DNA from: Lancefieldella rimae ATCC 49626
GTDB lineage: Bacteria; Actinomycetota; Coriobacteriia; Coriobacteriales; Atopobiaceae
Assembly (NCBI RefSeq): GCF_000174015.1
Contig: NZ_ACFE01000004.1
Coordinates: 62,001 to 126,000 of the forward strand
Length of the DNA stretch: 64,000 bases
Reading direction: 5' to 3'
The translations under genes and the position numbers were made by a program. Every line of letters begins with the position of its first letter. Positions within the stretch are counted from its first letter, which is position 1. Below, one piece after another: positions 33,674 to 62,321 of this stretch. Below the pieces are notes generated by a model. That model had not been told where the DNA came from, did no database searches, and worked only from the letters and a program-made list of their open reading frames with translations.

Positions 33674-33913
33674 CGCGAGAAGACCCTACGAGCATGATCA
33701 TACCTGACTAGAGCTGCCAGAAATGCGCCAAGTATGGCTTATATTGCCATATTTACTGCAAGTTTGGTATATATGAACCATACTTGCTGCAAGTTTGGTT
33801 AATCGTGCCCAACTTGCTGCAAGTTTGGCAGCGCCATTATGACGATCCAACTTGGCGTCATTTTGGCAGCACCATTCCGGCAGTACCCTCTTGGCAACAC
33901 TAAGATAATCAAA
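33674..33913. repeat. Dispersed intergenic repeat, copy A
   Basis: About 240 bases matching copy B at 56720-56945. A 47-base block (33721-33767) is identical to 56765-56811. Inside are tandem hairpins built on AACTTGCTGCAAGTTTGG, including CCAACTTGCTGCAAGTTTGG at 33809-33828, and half sites CGCCAAGT/ACTTGGCG. It does not encode a protein that I can recognise and looks like a lineage-specific interspersed element. Confidence 0.8.
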
Positions 33914-56719: not shown

Positions 56720-56945
56720 GCGAGAAAACCTTACGAGCATAATCATACTGCCGAGCGCTGCCAAAAATGCGCCAAGTATGGCTTATATTGCCATATTTAC
56801 TGCAAGTTTGGCATATATTTAACTAAACTTGCTGCAAGTATGGTTAATCGTGCCCAACTTGCTGCAAGTTTGGCAGCGCTGTTCCGGTAACACTAACTTG
56901 GCGCATTTCTGGCAGCGCCGTTCTGGCAACACCAAGGCAATCAAA
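56720..56945. repeat. Dispersed intergenic repeat, copy B
   Basis: Second copy of the element seen at 33674-33913. A 47-base block (56765-56811) is identical, and the CCAACTTGCTGCAAGTTTGG hairpin is at 56854-56873. The copies differ by small deletions and substitutions at the right half. It ends 60 bases before tRNA-Thr. Confidence 0.8.
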
Positions 56946-57174: not shown

Positions 57175-58365
57175 TTAGAGAAGACGCAAAATACCCCTCA
57201 CAAGCCGCTCAAAATCATCCGCGTAGTGCTCTGCCGCTTCAAGAACGCTCTTGTGCGTAGTACCCCGAGCACCGGCAGGATTGGCTGCCAGTGTAAGTCC
57301 CAACACATTCATGTTCAGCGCACGAGCCATAATAACTTCAAGCGCCGTTGAAACGCCCGTGTATGAGACATTCATGGCTCGTAGCATGTTCACTTCTGCT
57401 GGTGTCTCAAAGTTAGGACCGAGAAGACCGGCAAAAATCCCTTCTTCTACCGTAATACCCAGATCGTCGGCCACGCCTCGTGCAAGCGTACGGAGATAGG
57501 GAGAATACGCATCATTCATATCAACAAAGGGAGTTTCAACATTCTTGAGGCCGGCCCACTCAGCAAGAGGATTGGTACCGGTAAGGTTAATCTGATCGGT
57601 AATAATGCCAAGACCGGTACCGGCATTTCCCGGAACGGCTCCCGTGGCACCTGCAAAAATGATATCGCGACAGCCCAAATGATGTGCGTGCTGCACTAAC
57701 GCCGTTACTTCGGCTGCGGAATATCCCTGGTATAGATGTACGCGACCCGGATATACCACAACGGGCACGCCGTCGATGGTTCCTATGGTAGCCTCAAAGC
57801 TATGTCCGGTAACCGGCTGGGCATCTACCGGAAATCCCTCAATATCACGGTAATCAATGCGACGCACCGGCTTCACGAGGTTTGCTAAATGTCCAAGACC
57901 GGTTCCCAACACAAGAGCAACAGGATGCTCAACGGATGGCTTTATCTCTTCGACGGTCTTCTCGGTAACCACACAAATCCCCTCCTCTTCTAAGTGACGG
58001 GCAAAAATACCCTCACCGGGAATGAGTTTTCCTGAATATGTACCATCATAGACCTCATGAACTCCGCAAGACGGGCTTTTAGCCTTCAAAACGGCAAGCG
58101 TTGCTCCAAATTCTCGAGCGGTGGCAAGGGAGCAGAGCGCTCCTTTCTGAAAGCTATCGGTAACCTCAGTGCCGTCCTTAAGCCATATACGACCATCCCG
58201 CTGTTCTGCCGGCGGCCGTGGGGTTGGCAGTCCGGAGCGAACCTCCGGACACAAGTGCATTGCTTCAACCTTTGAAGCAAGCTCCTGGACCGCACGAGAT
58301 GTTTTTGCGCCGCCGTCATATCGAACGGGAAAGCCAAGCAGACACGCGCTTATTACAACCTTCAT
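57175..58365 (-). CDS. DUF523 domain fused to purine-nucleoside phosphorylase
   Basis: A 396-residue fusion. Residues 1-140 are a DUF523 domain (SACLLGFPVRYDGGAK, CPEVRSGLPTPRPPAEQRDG, KAKSPSCGVHEVYDG), whose conserved Cys suggest a metal or Fe-S-linked role. Residues about 145-396 are a class I purine-nucleoside phosphorylase (VLGTGLGHL, YPGRVHLYQGY, GATGAVPGNAGTGLGIITDQINLTGTNPL, GPNFETPAEVN, GVSTALEVIMARAL). The usual base-binding ITN stretch reads TLAANPAG, so specificity may differ. The PNP half splits purine nucleosides with phosphate and fits the purine theme of the left end of the window. The start at 58365 follows AGGAAG. Role of DUF523 in the fusion unknown. Confidence 0.88.
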   Translation of the reverse strand: MKVVISACLLGFPVRYDGGAKTSRAVQELASKVEAMHLCPEVRSGLPTPRPPAEQRDGRIWLKDGTEVTDSFQKGALCSLATAREFGATLAVLKAKSPSCGVHEVYDGTYSGKLIPGEGIFARHLEEEGICVVTEKTVEEIKPSVEHPVALVLGTGLGHLANLVKPVRRIDYRDIEGFPVDAQPVTGHSFEATIGTIDGVPVVVYPGRVHLYQGYSAAEVTALVQHAHHLGCRDIIFAGATGAVPGNAGTGLGIITDQINLTGTNPLAEWAGLKNVETPFVDMNDAYSPYLRTLARGVADDLGITVEEGIFAGLLGPNFETPAEVNMLRAMNVSYTGVSTALEVIMARALNMNVLGLTLAANPAGARGTTHKSVLEAAEHYADDFERLVRGILRLL

Positions 58366-58386
58366 CACGCTTCCTATCTCCAAAAT

Positions 58387-58420
58387 AAAACCTGTAATCA
58401 TGATACTGATTACAGGTTTT
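58387..58420 (-). terminator. Bidirectional terminator between the SurA-like and PNP fusion genes
   Basis: A perfect 14-bp stem (AAAACCTGTAATCA and TGATTACAGGTTTT, 6-base loop) with T-runs on both sides, 78 bases after the SurA-like stop and just before the PNP fusion. Confidence 0.85.
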
Positions 58421-59529: not shown

Positions 59530-60384
59530 CTATTGAGCAGCCGCCACGATCTCAGCAGAGAATTTCTGTATATATCCCGTTGCATTTTCTGCGTCGAACG
59601 CAAAGCGCTCTTTAAGGGCTGCTTTCGTCTCTTTAGAAATGGCGCCTTTCGCAAAATTCAAAGTTCCGACAAGCATGTCATAGTATTCTGCATCACCGTG
59701 GTAGCACTGAATTGCCTCATTTAAAAGCGGCCATGCCTGATCGGAGTGCTTTTGCGATGTTGCACCATAGCGTGTCAAAAACAGAAACGCCGCAAGACGA
59801 ACCGTTGATGAAGTGTCATCAAAAAGTGATGCCTCTGCACCGTCAAACGCTTTGATAACTTCATTCCCATAAGACTCACTTAAGCTTGCTAAAGCGGCAA
59901 GAATCTCCCAACGAGTCTGAGCTTCCGGTCGATACAGCGCATCAATAAGATCTTCAACCCTACCTTCAAATGCTTCGGGAGTTGTCTGCGCAATCTCTGC
60001 AATTTCATGAGCTGCTTCTTGACGCCGGCGGCGGCTTGGGTTTGAAAGACTTTCAATAAAGGACTCAATTTCTTTCTTCTGAGTGGCAGTGAGACCCTTT
60101 GATTTTGAATCCTTTTTTGTGGGACTCACCGGAGCAGAAGTTTCTTCTTTAGAAGCCTTTTCTTTAGGGGACTCTTCTTTGGAAGCCTTTTTAGCCGCAG
60201 GCTTCTTAGTGGAAGTTTTCTTAGCCGCAACTTTCTTATCTGCGGACTCCTTAGCAGCAGGCTTCTTGGCTGTAAACTTCTTAGTAGTCCCAGAGGCCCT
60301 CTTACTCTTTTTATCGGTCTTCTCGCCGTCCTTATGGTCGGCTTTCTCAACGACCTTCTTATCAGTCTCTTTTTTAGTAGCCAT
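59530..60384 (-). CDS. Lys/Ala-rich N-terminus with HEAT-like repeat protein
   Basis: A 284-residue protein in two parts. Residues 1-95 are a Lys/Ala/Ser-rich disordered tail with AAKK and KKPAAK repeats, like histone H1 or actinobacterial nucleoid proteins. Residues about 97-284 are helical repeats of HEAT type (FIESLSNPSRRRRQEAAHEIAEIAQ, then ALYRPEAQTRWEILAALASLSESYG and TSSTVRLAAFLFLTRYGA). It may bind DNA or RNA through the tail and a partner through the repeats. GAAAGG precedes the ATG. It lies 29 bases after a NYN-domain gene, so both may act together on RNA or DNA. Confidence 0.75.
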   Translation of the reverse strand: MATKKETDKKVVEKADHKDGEKTDKKSKRASGTTKKFTAKKPAAKESADKKVAAKKTSTKKPAAKKASKEESPKEKASKEETSAPVSPTKKDSKSKGLTATQKKEIESFIESLSNPSRRRRQEAAHEIAEIAQTTPEAFEGRVEDLIDALYRPEAQTRWEILAALASLSESYGNEVIKAFDGAEASLFDDTSSTVRLAAFLFLTRYGATSQKHSDQAWPLLNEAIQCYHGDAEYYDMLVGTLNFAKGAISKETKAALKERFAFDAENATGYIQKFSAEIVAAAQ

Positions 60385-60413: not shown

Positions 60414-61184
60414 TTACTCATCACTAAAACCGTCTACCATTGTTCCGGTTTTTTCATCCTTATGAATTTTAATAAATCCTAATCGCGAAGCTTCCTGAAG
60501 TAAAGCAGTAAACGTACGATATCCATATGTCGTTTCAGAGAAATCGGGACGCTTACGTTTCATGGTCAGCTTGAGTTGTGAGGCATAAATTGCCTGGTCA
60601 TTTTCGCTTTGAAGCGAATCAATTGTCTGGAATAACAACTTATAGCAGCTCTGTTTATCTTTTGCGACTTTATTCTTATAGCTTGGGAAACGAGTAACCG
60701 CGCTAAATTTCTCTTTTTTCGCAATATCTTCATAAAAGATAAACTCATCACATACATTTTCAAGCAAGGATGCCGTTCCCTTTTTGCGCCCAATACCAAT
60801 AACGGTTTTGTCATACTCCTTGAGCTTTGCCACCAAGGGAGAGAAATCCGAATCTCCTGAAAGAATGGCGAAGGTATCAATGTGATCTTTGGTAAGGCAT
60901 GCCTCCAGCGCATCAACAGCCAAATGAATATCGGCGGAGTTTTTCCCTTTTTGAGAATTATCAGGAATCTCAATAAGCTCAACGCCAAGCTCGTGCAGGG
61001 CAGGCTTTACCGCCTCGTGACGACTCCAGTCGCAGTATGCGCGTTTTATGGTAATTCGCCCTTTGTCAACAAGCCGCTCAAAAACAAGCTTTAAGGCACC
61101 TCGAGACCCATTGGAACCTACCGGAAAATTTTCATAATCAATAAATACCGCAATGGAACTCTGCGGAGTTGTTATATCGCTCAA
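60414..61184 (-). CDS. NYN-domain (LabA/DUF88) protein with OST-HTH
   Basis: A 256-residue protein. The N-terminal NYN domain belongs to the PIN-like nucleases: metal residues appear as Asp16 in FIDYEN, KGKNSADIHLAVDALEA and the SGDSDF motif near residue 110. A basic linker is followed by an OST-HTH/LOTUS-type winged helix (about 180-250; YGYRTFTALLQEASRLGFIKI). Such proteins are RNA-binding or RNA-processing factors. The start is TTG with a weak AAAG site. It lies between the dehydrogenase and the HEAT-like genes in one minus-strand run. Confidence 0.85.
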   Translation of the reverse strand: MSDITTPQSSIAVFIDYENFPVGSNGSRGALKLVFERLVDKGRITIKRAYCDWSRHEAVKPALHELGVELIEIPDNSQKGKNSADIHLAVDALEACLTKDHIDTFAILSGDSDFSPLVAKLKEYDKTVIGIGRKKGTASLLENVCDEFIFYEDIAKKEKFSAVTRFPSYKNKVAKDKQSCYKLLFQTIDSLQSENDQAIYASQLKLTMKRKRPDFSETTYGYRTFTALLQEASRLGFIKIHKDEKTGTMVDGFSDE

Positions 61185-61196
61185 TGTTGCTACTTT

Positions 61197-62321
61197 CTAG
61201 TGTTTATGGTGGTGATCGCAGGTGTGCTCATGACTGTCGTGGTGGTGACCACCGCAGCAATCATGGCCTTCATGATGGTGCTCACCACAGCAATCATGGC
61301 CTTCATGGTGATGATTGCCGCAGCAATCGCCGTCCTCGTGGTGGTGACCGCCACAGCAGTCGTGATCCTCGTGATGGTGGCCACATTCCTCTTCTTCGGA
61401 ATCAAGCAGCGACCAATCAATCCCGGCGGCAGTTCCCGTTTGTTCATCACTATACAAAAGGGTAAGAGCTTGCGTACCCATACGGGATCCACCCACTTGA
61501 CACAGCATATCAAAGAGGGCAAATGCCGTCTCAGTGCCCGGAAGCGTAATATCCAAATCCTCAGATTGTGCAAGTGCCAGCGCAATATCTTTGCGGAAGT
61601 GCTCGGCCAAAAATCCGGGAGTAAAATCACCCTCGAGAGACTTAGGTGCAAGTTCTTGAAGTGCGCGAGAAGAACCCATGCCGGACGCAATCATCTCAAG
61701 TGTCTGTTTGACATCCAATCCTCCTTGCTGGGCAAGAGCCATTGCATCTGCATAGCCAATCATGCAAGACGCAAGGGAAATCTGATTGCACAATTTGGCA
61801 ATCTGACCCATACCTGCTTTGCTCATGCAATAAATTTTTGCAGAAAACGTTTCAAGAAGCGCTCGTATGGGCTCAATATCTTTCTCTTTAGCTCCGGCGA
61901 TAAGCGTGAGCGTTCCGGACTTTGCACCGGCCTCACCACCGGTAACCGGACAATCTATTGCGTGCTTGTCGTCAATCTCTGCGGCATCATGAATATCGCG
62001 AGCCAACTGCGGAGACGAAGTCGTTAAATCAATCATCCAGGCCCCACGTTTACTTGCACGAAGAATGCCATCGGAAGAGAGATAAACATCCTCAACATCG
62101 CTCGGATATCCAACCATAGTAAAAATCACATCGGCATTGGTAACGGCATTAACAACACCATCAGCCCAATGAGCCCCCTTGGCGAGAAGTCCCTCAGCCT
62201 TAGATTGCGTTCTTGTGTACACCGTAACGTCGTACCCGGCATCAAGAATATGCTCCGCAATGGGCACGCCCATTATTCCTGTACCAATAAAGGCGATTTT
62301 AGAACTCTTGCCTAACAACAT
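61197..62321 (-). CDS. 3-hydroxyisobutyrate dehydrogenase-like protein with His/Cys-rich metal-binding tail
   Basis: A 374-residue protein. The body (1-about 305) is a beta-hydroxyacid dehydrogenase: NAD(P) motif GTGIMGVPIAEHIL, substrate block DCPVTGGEAGAKSGTL and the catalytic Lys segment in GQIAKLCNQI. It probably reduces or oxidises a short hydroxy acid or aldehyde such as tartronate semialdehyde. From about residue 311 the protein continues with four or five 11-residue repeats (consensus CCGxHHHEGHD), ending in CDHHHKH. This tail, absent from normal family members of about 290-300 residues, looks like a Zn, Ni or Cu store or sensor. AAAGGG precedes the ATG. Confidence 0.87.
   Translation of the reverse strand: MLLGKSSKIAFIGTGIMGVPIAEHILDAGYDVTVYTRTQSKAEGLLAKGAHWADGVVNAVTNADVIFTMVGYPSDVEDVYLSSDGILRASKRGAWMIDLTTSSPQLARDIHDAAEIDDKHAIDCPVTGGEAGAKSGTLTLIAGAKEKDIEPIRALLETFSAKIYCMSKAGMGQIAKLCNQISLASCMIGYADAMALAQQGGLDVKQTLEMIASGMGSSRALQELAPKSLEGDFTPGFLAEHFRKDIALALAQSEDLDITLPGTETAFALFDMLCQVGGSRMGTQALTLLYSDEQTGTAAGIDWSLLDSEEEECGHHHEDHDCCGGHHHEDGDCCGNHHHEGHDCCGEHHHEGHDCCGGHHHDSHEHTCDHHHKH
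61210..61388 (-). repeat. Tandem 33-bp repeats encoding His/Cys-rich tail
   Basis: About five imperfect 33-bp units, each encoding CCG-x-HHHE-x-x-D, form the 3' end of the dehydrogenase gene. Copy number could vary between strains by slippage. Confidence 0.8.

Follow-up and report, generated by a model that had tools for sequence, protein, structure and literature searches.

A tandemly repeated His/Cys tail on a beta-hydroxyacid dehydrogenase of Lancefieldella rimae: a putative metal-buffering module in two families of Coriobacteriales

Introduction

The genome of Lancefieldella rimae ATCC 49626 (1.63 Mb, 9 contigs) encodes a beta-hydroxyacid dehydrogenase that ends in a tandemly repeated segment rich in histidine and cysteine, and the question raised by this locus is what such a tail does on a metabolic enzyme. 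The gene lies within the window, i.e., the whole stretch of 64,000 nucleotides that was analysed. The initial annotation, made from the letters alone, had described a hydroxyacid dehydrogenase with a tandem His/Cys tail of the metal-chaperone type, a description that was borne out by domain searches and residue counts (see below). In a literature search limited to open-access text, no such tail was reported for the beta-hydroxyacid dehydrogenase family. What appears to be new here is the combination of a known type of metal-binding tail with a new carrier, its presence in two families, and signs of carrier change.

Features of the gene

The dehydrogenase gene (61197..62321, minus strand) is an intact, HIBADH/GarR-like open reading frame of 374 residues, with matches above cut-off to PF03446 (NAD_binding_2, 1.1e-45, 155.9 bits) and PF14833 (NAD_binding_11, 3.2e-25, 89.2 bits). 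The catalytic core (residues 1-303, 61413..62321, minus strand) was delimited by invariant alignment columns and by counting motifs in orthologues with and without the tail. It contains the Rossmann motif GxGxMG together with DCPVTGG and GxGxxxKLCNQ, in agreement with the HIBADH-superfamily motifs GxGxxG, D-PV[ST]GG and GxGxxxKxxN. The protein is a beta-hydroxyacid dehydrogenase according to every superfamily test run, and by sequence it is a member of the HIBADH / tartronate-semialdehyde-reductase family. Its top fold match is the L-serine 3-dehydrogenase of Pyrobaculum (33% identity), which together with a Pseudomonas serine dehydrogenase makes up its nearest solved relatives. The likeness to HIBADH, GarR and L-serine 3-dehydrogenase extends over the whole core, with both Pfam domains, the Rossmann and catalytic Lys motifs and the fold; the difference is that the PDB matches span only residues 3-301, and none reaches into the tail. 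The protein stays below every NCBIfam equivalog trusted cut-off (best score 204.9 versus 340.75 needed, TIGR01505), the named equivalogs being tartronate semialdehyde reductase, HIBADH, L-threonate dehydrogenase and sulfolactaldehyde reductase.

The core is followed by an acidic linker, SLLDSEEE (residues 304-311, 61389..61412, minus strand), seen in the alignment and with pLDDT <50, and by the His/Cys tail (residues 312-374, 61200..61388, minus strand), which was delimited by repeat finding, translation and pLDDT and which ends at the stop codon 61197-61199. The earlier estimates of a tail of about 63 residues, with an 11-residue repeat and several Cys pairs, held: the tail comprises 63 residues with 24 His and 10 Cys, including four CC pairs (residues 322, 333, 344 and 355). 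Five HHH clusters had been reported; six were counted (residues 315, 326, 337, 348, 359 and 370), spaced exactly 11 apart. The span first assigned to the tail, 61210-61388, was correct at 61388, while its start at 61210 clips the last few residues. Four tandem units of the form xHHHExxDCCG occupy 61251..61382 on the minus strand (61350-61382, 61317-61349, 61284-61316 and 61251-61283), and the diverged terminal units GHHHDSHEHTC and DHHHKH occupy 61200..61250 on the same strand. At the DNA level, TRF reported a 33-bp tandem array at 61228-61384 with 4.8 copies.

Across the 75 open frames in the window, the best 61-residue stretch contains 33 His+Cys in the tail versus 12 in the runner-up, so the tail is not a product of chance. 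Differences among the four full units are distributed over codon positions 1, 2 and 3 as 6/11/38, a pattern which shows that the reading frame is correct and that the protein sequence is conserved against drift at the DNA level. Amino-acid changes were seen in 527 of 3512 comparisons of His/Cys tail codons (15.0%) versus 1128 of 4731 comparisons of other tail codons (23.8%), counted among close relatives in pairs that are not independent of each other. AlphaFold2, run with a shallow alignment of 12 sequences, gave a pLDDT of about 90 for the N-terminal domain, poor values for the second domain, and <50 for nearly all of residues 298-374; with an alignment of this depth the low pLDDT supports, but does not prove, that the tail is disordered. 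The tail is a predicted-disordered terminal segment rich in His, Cys, Asp, Glu and Gly, the sequence feature used here to mark the functional class of His/Cys-rich metal-binding tails.

A NYN-domain protein (60414..61184, minus strand; PF01936 and synteny) begins about 12 bp after the tail stop and is a conserved neighbour, separate from the tail. No metal-related gene adjoins the dehydrogenase locus, and no known riboswitch was found within the window. Several other features of the window were recorded in passing. A HEAT-repeat-like protein (60120-60384, minus strand) has a Lys/Ala-rich N-terminal extension with period-15/30 repeats and a weak match to the histone-H1-like model NF038053. A gene at 57175-58401 (minus strand) fuses a 2-thiouracil desulfurase (DUF523-type) to a nucleoside phosphorylase domain, and is a conserved neighbour of the dehydrogenase locus across the family. 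A degenerate repeat of ~30 bp occurs at 33729-33828 and at 56800-56875, 23 kb apart, the latter copy between MsrA and a tRNA; its core, GCAAGTTTGG, has five exact matches vs 0.3 expected.

Phylogenetic distribution

Of the named relatives, Atopobium sp. oral taxon 199 F0494 is nearest (79% identity), then Atopobium sp. BS2 (73%); Olsenella and Tractidigestivibacter come next. Within the family, 126 of the 140 genomes searched had a match; six matches were set aside, namely a split gene (G121) and five of genus g9 with 33-36% identity, which left 120 orthologues. Among these, 79 carry a His/Cys tail (medians 48.5 residues, 11 His and 6 Cys), 15 a His-only tail, one a short Cys tail, and 25 none. 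Nearly all close relatives are tailed, contrary to a tail absent from all of them, which had been named as the outcome that would count against the initial annotation. Nor is the tail peculiar to this gene or strain: it is a trait of two families, though some genera lack it, and two unrelated proteins carry it as well.

The second family, in the same order, is probably Coriobacteriaceae/Collinsella, as judged by kinship; all of its 17 orthologues that were read are tailed, with the motifs CCGGH, HECHC and HDH, and one of these tails (L163) is Cys-rich and His-poor. Three orthologues from further families have a His-only tail or none. Tails differ widely in length and motif between orthologues, and some lack Cys. 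Some of the His-only tails are no more than 7-8 His in a row. This is the C-terminus of the dehydrogenase in L128, L134, L123, L086 and L116 of genus g35, where it amounts to a natural poly-His tag; related species end in SPARQRYF-type tails.

The gene order is nearly everywhere the same: ribosome hibernation factor (HPF), DegV, dehydrogenase, an optional membrane protein, NYN and HEAT. Because this order is kept, the genes are taken as true orthologues and as one vertically inherited gene. The optional membrane protein, of 150-160 aa, has only a sub-threshold DsbB-like Pfam match; in one genome (G059, locus L059) a single open frame, 491 aa long, runs through the dehydrogenase, its His/Cys tail and the membrane protein downstream. 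On a tree built from the cores, the tail switches between present and absent 12 times, at least seven of them on well-supported branches, and the catalytic motifs are equally well kept in tail-less and tailed orthologues. Most simply, the tail would be old and would have been repeatedly lost or reduced, although gains and losses are not distinguished by the number of switches as such.

Similar tails on other proteins

When the tail by itself was the query, BLAST-type searches returned just the dehydrogenase gene in the L. rimae genome, a misleading result, since such searches miss compositional relatives. One of these is an MBL-fold hydrolase with an N-terminal His/Cys tail of 58 residues, encoded outside the window on contig C9 of the same genome (L300:965-1744, minus strand; PF00753). 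Its tail opens MGDTSHTHECCGHHEHEDGCCGHHHGEGCGHHHHGHEDGCC... and the N-terminus reads MGDTSHTHECCGHHEHEDGCCGHHHGEGCGHHHHGHEDGCCEHHEEGCCGKGCGHHHD, with 18 His and 10 Cys; the nearest NCBIfam model is hydroxyacylglutathione hydrolase, below cut-off. The tail was first found as an N-terminal CCGGH tail in another genome (G030), of which the L. rimae copy is the orthologue. Fourteen further family genomes among those read have similar N-termini; in three of these, all of genus g26, the dehydrogenase is tail-less. A scan of the L. rimae genome for the CCGxH codon pattern found clusters solely at the dehydrogenase and MBL-hydrolase genes, all remaining matches being single and no more numerous than in the control. 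Weak matches in G130 (two) and G126 (one) were rejected as simple-repeat frames. Mutual exclusion of the MBL-hydrolase and dehydrogenase tails was also considered and rejected, as nine genomes have both.

The third carrier is SlyD. Its L. rimae copy (L200) is tail-less, as are nearly all those of the family and of genus g51 that were read. The exception is genus g35, in which 10 of 16 SlyDs read end in CCHGEG/HHEDGECC tails (L206, L207, L209, L215, L220, L223, L225, L228, L229 and L230). In all ten of these genomes the dehydrogenase tail is absent or pure poly-His, and in G138, the sole g35 genome whose dehydrogenase has a full Cys/His tail, SlyD is bare. A dehydrogenase Cys-tail and a SlyD tail occur together in 0 of 62 genomes (Fisher p 2e-4), a result that depends on a single genus and lacks significance on the tree. 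This pattern, within its one genus and the same limit on the tree, suggests that the SlyD tail replaces the dehydrogenase tail in g35. At least three genomes (G006, G050 and G065) have no such tail on dehydrogenase, MBL hydrolase or SlyD, so the function is dispensable or is met otherwise there. With similar tails on three unrelated carriers, at either end, the tail appears to behave as a portable module.

Comparison with known systems

The closest counterparts are nickel proteins. The unstructured tail of SlyD is composed of His, Cys, Asp and Glu and binds up to 7 Ni per SlyD in E. coli, and 3.3 Zn or 2.4 Ni are bound by SlyD of H. pylori; the metal affinity of such tails is micromolar (PMC7055735). 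Like these SlyD tails, the dehydrogenase tail is a C-terminal His/Cys/Asp/Glu segment, unstructured by prediction, on a soluble housekeeping protein, and like them it is variable between species and missing in some (PMC7055735). The differences lie in the carrier, a beta-hydroxyacid dehydrogenase without an FKBP domain instead of an FKBP prolyl isomerase, and in the client, as NiFe hydrogenase is found in 0 of 140 family genomes; SlyD itself is bare in the genome under study. With the wrong carrier and no client, the tailed dehydrogenase does not belong to the nickel chaperones of the SlyD type.

HspA (GroES) of Helicobacter pylori carries a His/Cys C-terminal extension for which nickel binding and a storage role have been reported (PMC3856676). 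It resembles the present case in that the conserved housekeeping protein acquired its extension in a single lineage, and differs in its carrier and in supporting the maturation of NiFe hydrogenase, the enzyme absent from this family. In mycobacterial GroEL1, too, a housekeeping fold ends in a His-rich C-terminal tail, for which a role in metal homeostasis has been proposed (PMC10170517); that tail is short, Cys-free and studied as a Cu(II) ligand, and sits on a chaperonin, not an enzyme. By analogy, the dehydrogenase tail in all likelihood works like those of SlyD and HspA.

Proposed function

On the strength of SlyD and HspA, the tail is probably a disordered transition-metal buffer or store displayed on a soluble enzyme, with Zn(II) as the most likely metal; this reading is held with moderate confidence, and so, taken overall, is a buffering or storage role for metal of any kind. 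The gene product would be an NAD(P)-dependent beta-hydroxyacid dehydrogenase, apparently active, that bears a disordered His/Cys/Asp/Glu/Gly tail. Each chain would bind several transition-metal ions, most likely Zn(II) and probably also Ni(II) and others, and the tail would buffer or store metal inside the cell. The enzyme would contribute abundance, solubility and oligomerisation, not chemistry, abundance and oligomers being assumed from the family. A role as mere carrier would account for the free variation of tail length, for the keeping or loss of the tail without change in the catalytic motifs, and for the similar tails on MBL hydrolase and SlyD.

A different reading is that metal binding or disulphide formation in the tail regulates the dehydrogenase itself, as a metal or thiol-redox switch. 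In its favour, the enzyme that bears the tail is intact, the CC pairs could oxidise, and the PPIase activity of SlyD is inhibited by nickel binding (PMC7055735). Against such a switch, which is judged improbable, stand the alike catalytic motifs of tailed and tail-less orthologues, the very variable tails, some of them devoid of Cys, and the similar module on unrelated proteins at either end. The specific link between redox metabolism and metal storage proposed at the outset is weakened for the same reason: a tail found on two other, unrelated proteins points to a portable module, with the enzyme as its carrier.

A nickel chaperone or store that feeds nickel enzymes, in the manner of SlyD and HspA, would fit the nickel proteins to which the closest described tails belong. 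His-rich low-complexity segments in prokaryotes are also enriched among nickel- and cobalt-binding proteins (PMC6821194). However, the family has no NiFe hydrogenase, and urease, LarA and CbiM were not found in this genome or its genus. Delivery to classical nickel enzymes is therefore unlikely, in a search that covered NiFe hydrogenase, urease, LarA and CbiM, and the nickel chaperone or store as a whole is considered very unlikely. The richest tails occur where Ni/Co uptake is missing (median His+Cys of 18 in genomes without CbiM vs 8 with it; raw anticorrelation p 1.5e-9, genus rho -0.65), a trend that was dropped as evidence because it vanishes in phylogenetically independent pairs.

As to the metal that would be bound by the buffer, tail composition was H 25%, G 22%, D 15%, C 15% and E 13%, and the composition analysis found in the tails no Met clusters of the kind that would suggest Cu(I). 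MBL-fold enzymes are typically Zn-dependent. With the classical nickel users excluded and an MBL-fold protein among the carriers, zinc is the best guess, put at slightly under an even chance; the tail may instead serve nickel detoxification or copper or cobalt buffering.

Functionless, neutral repeat expansion is highly improbable. A tandem 33-bp repeat of variable copy number and the frequent tail/no-tail changes on the tree would fit it, but the codon-position pattern, the slower amino-acid change at His/Cys codons, the retention of the tail across two families and the similar tails on other proteins speak against it. Hardly credible is a tether or docking segment that would join the dehydrogenase to the small downstream membrane protein in a membrane-associated complex: in many genomes no more than about 10 bp separate the start of that protein from the tail stop, and in G059 it shares one frame with the enzyme, yet the tail is kept in this genome and genus, which lack the membrane gene, and the gene persists in G036, which is tail-less.

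Significance

Metal-binding tails are usually discussed within dedicated nickel chaperones; here one is carried by a metabolic enzyme in two families whose members are largely host-associated, among them genomes, such as the present one, without the usual nickel enzymes. A wider reading, speculative and rather unlikely, is that a portable His/Cys metal-buffer module on unrelated housekeeping proteins (dehydrogenase C-terminus, MBL-hydrolase N-terminus and SlyD C-terminus) is the main cytosolic zinc store of Coriobacteriales, its carrier differing between genera. For nickel-affinity purification from these bacteria, the tails are a warning of strong native contaminants. If the tail stores zinc, it would be a simple answer to zinc buffering in small-genome anaerobes of mouth and gut, and the enzyme, with orthologues that are tailed, poly-His or tail-less, would offer a natural experiment for zinc storage.
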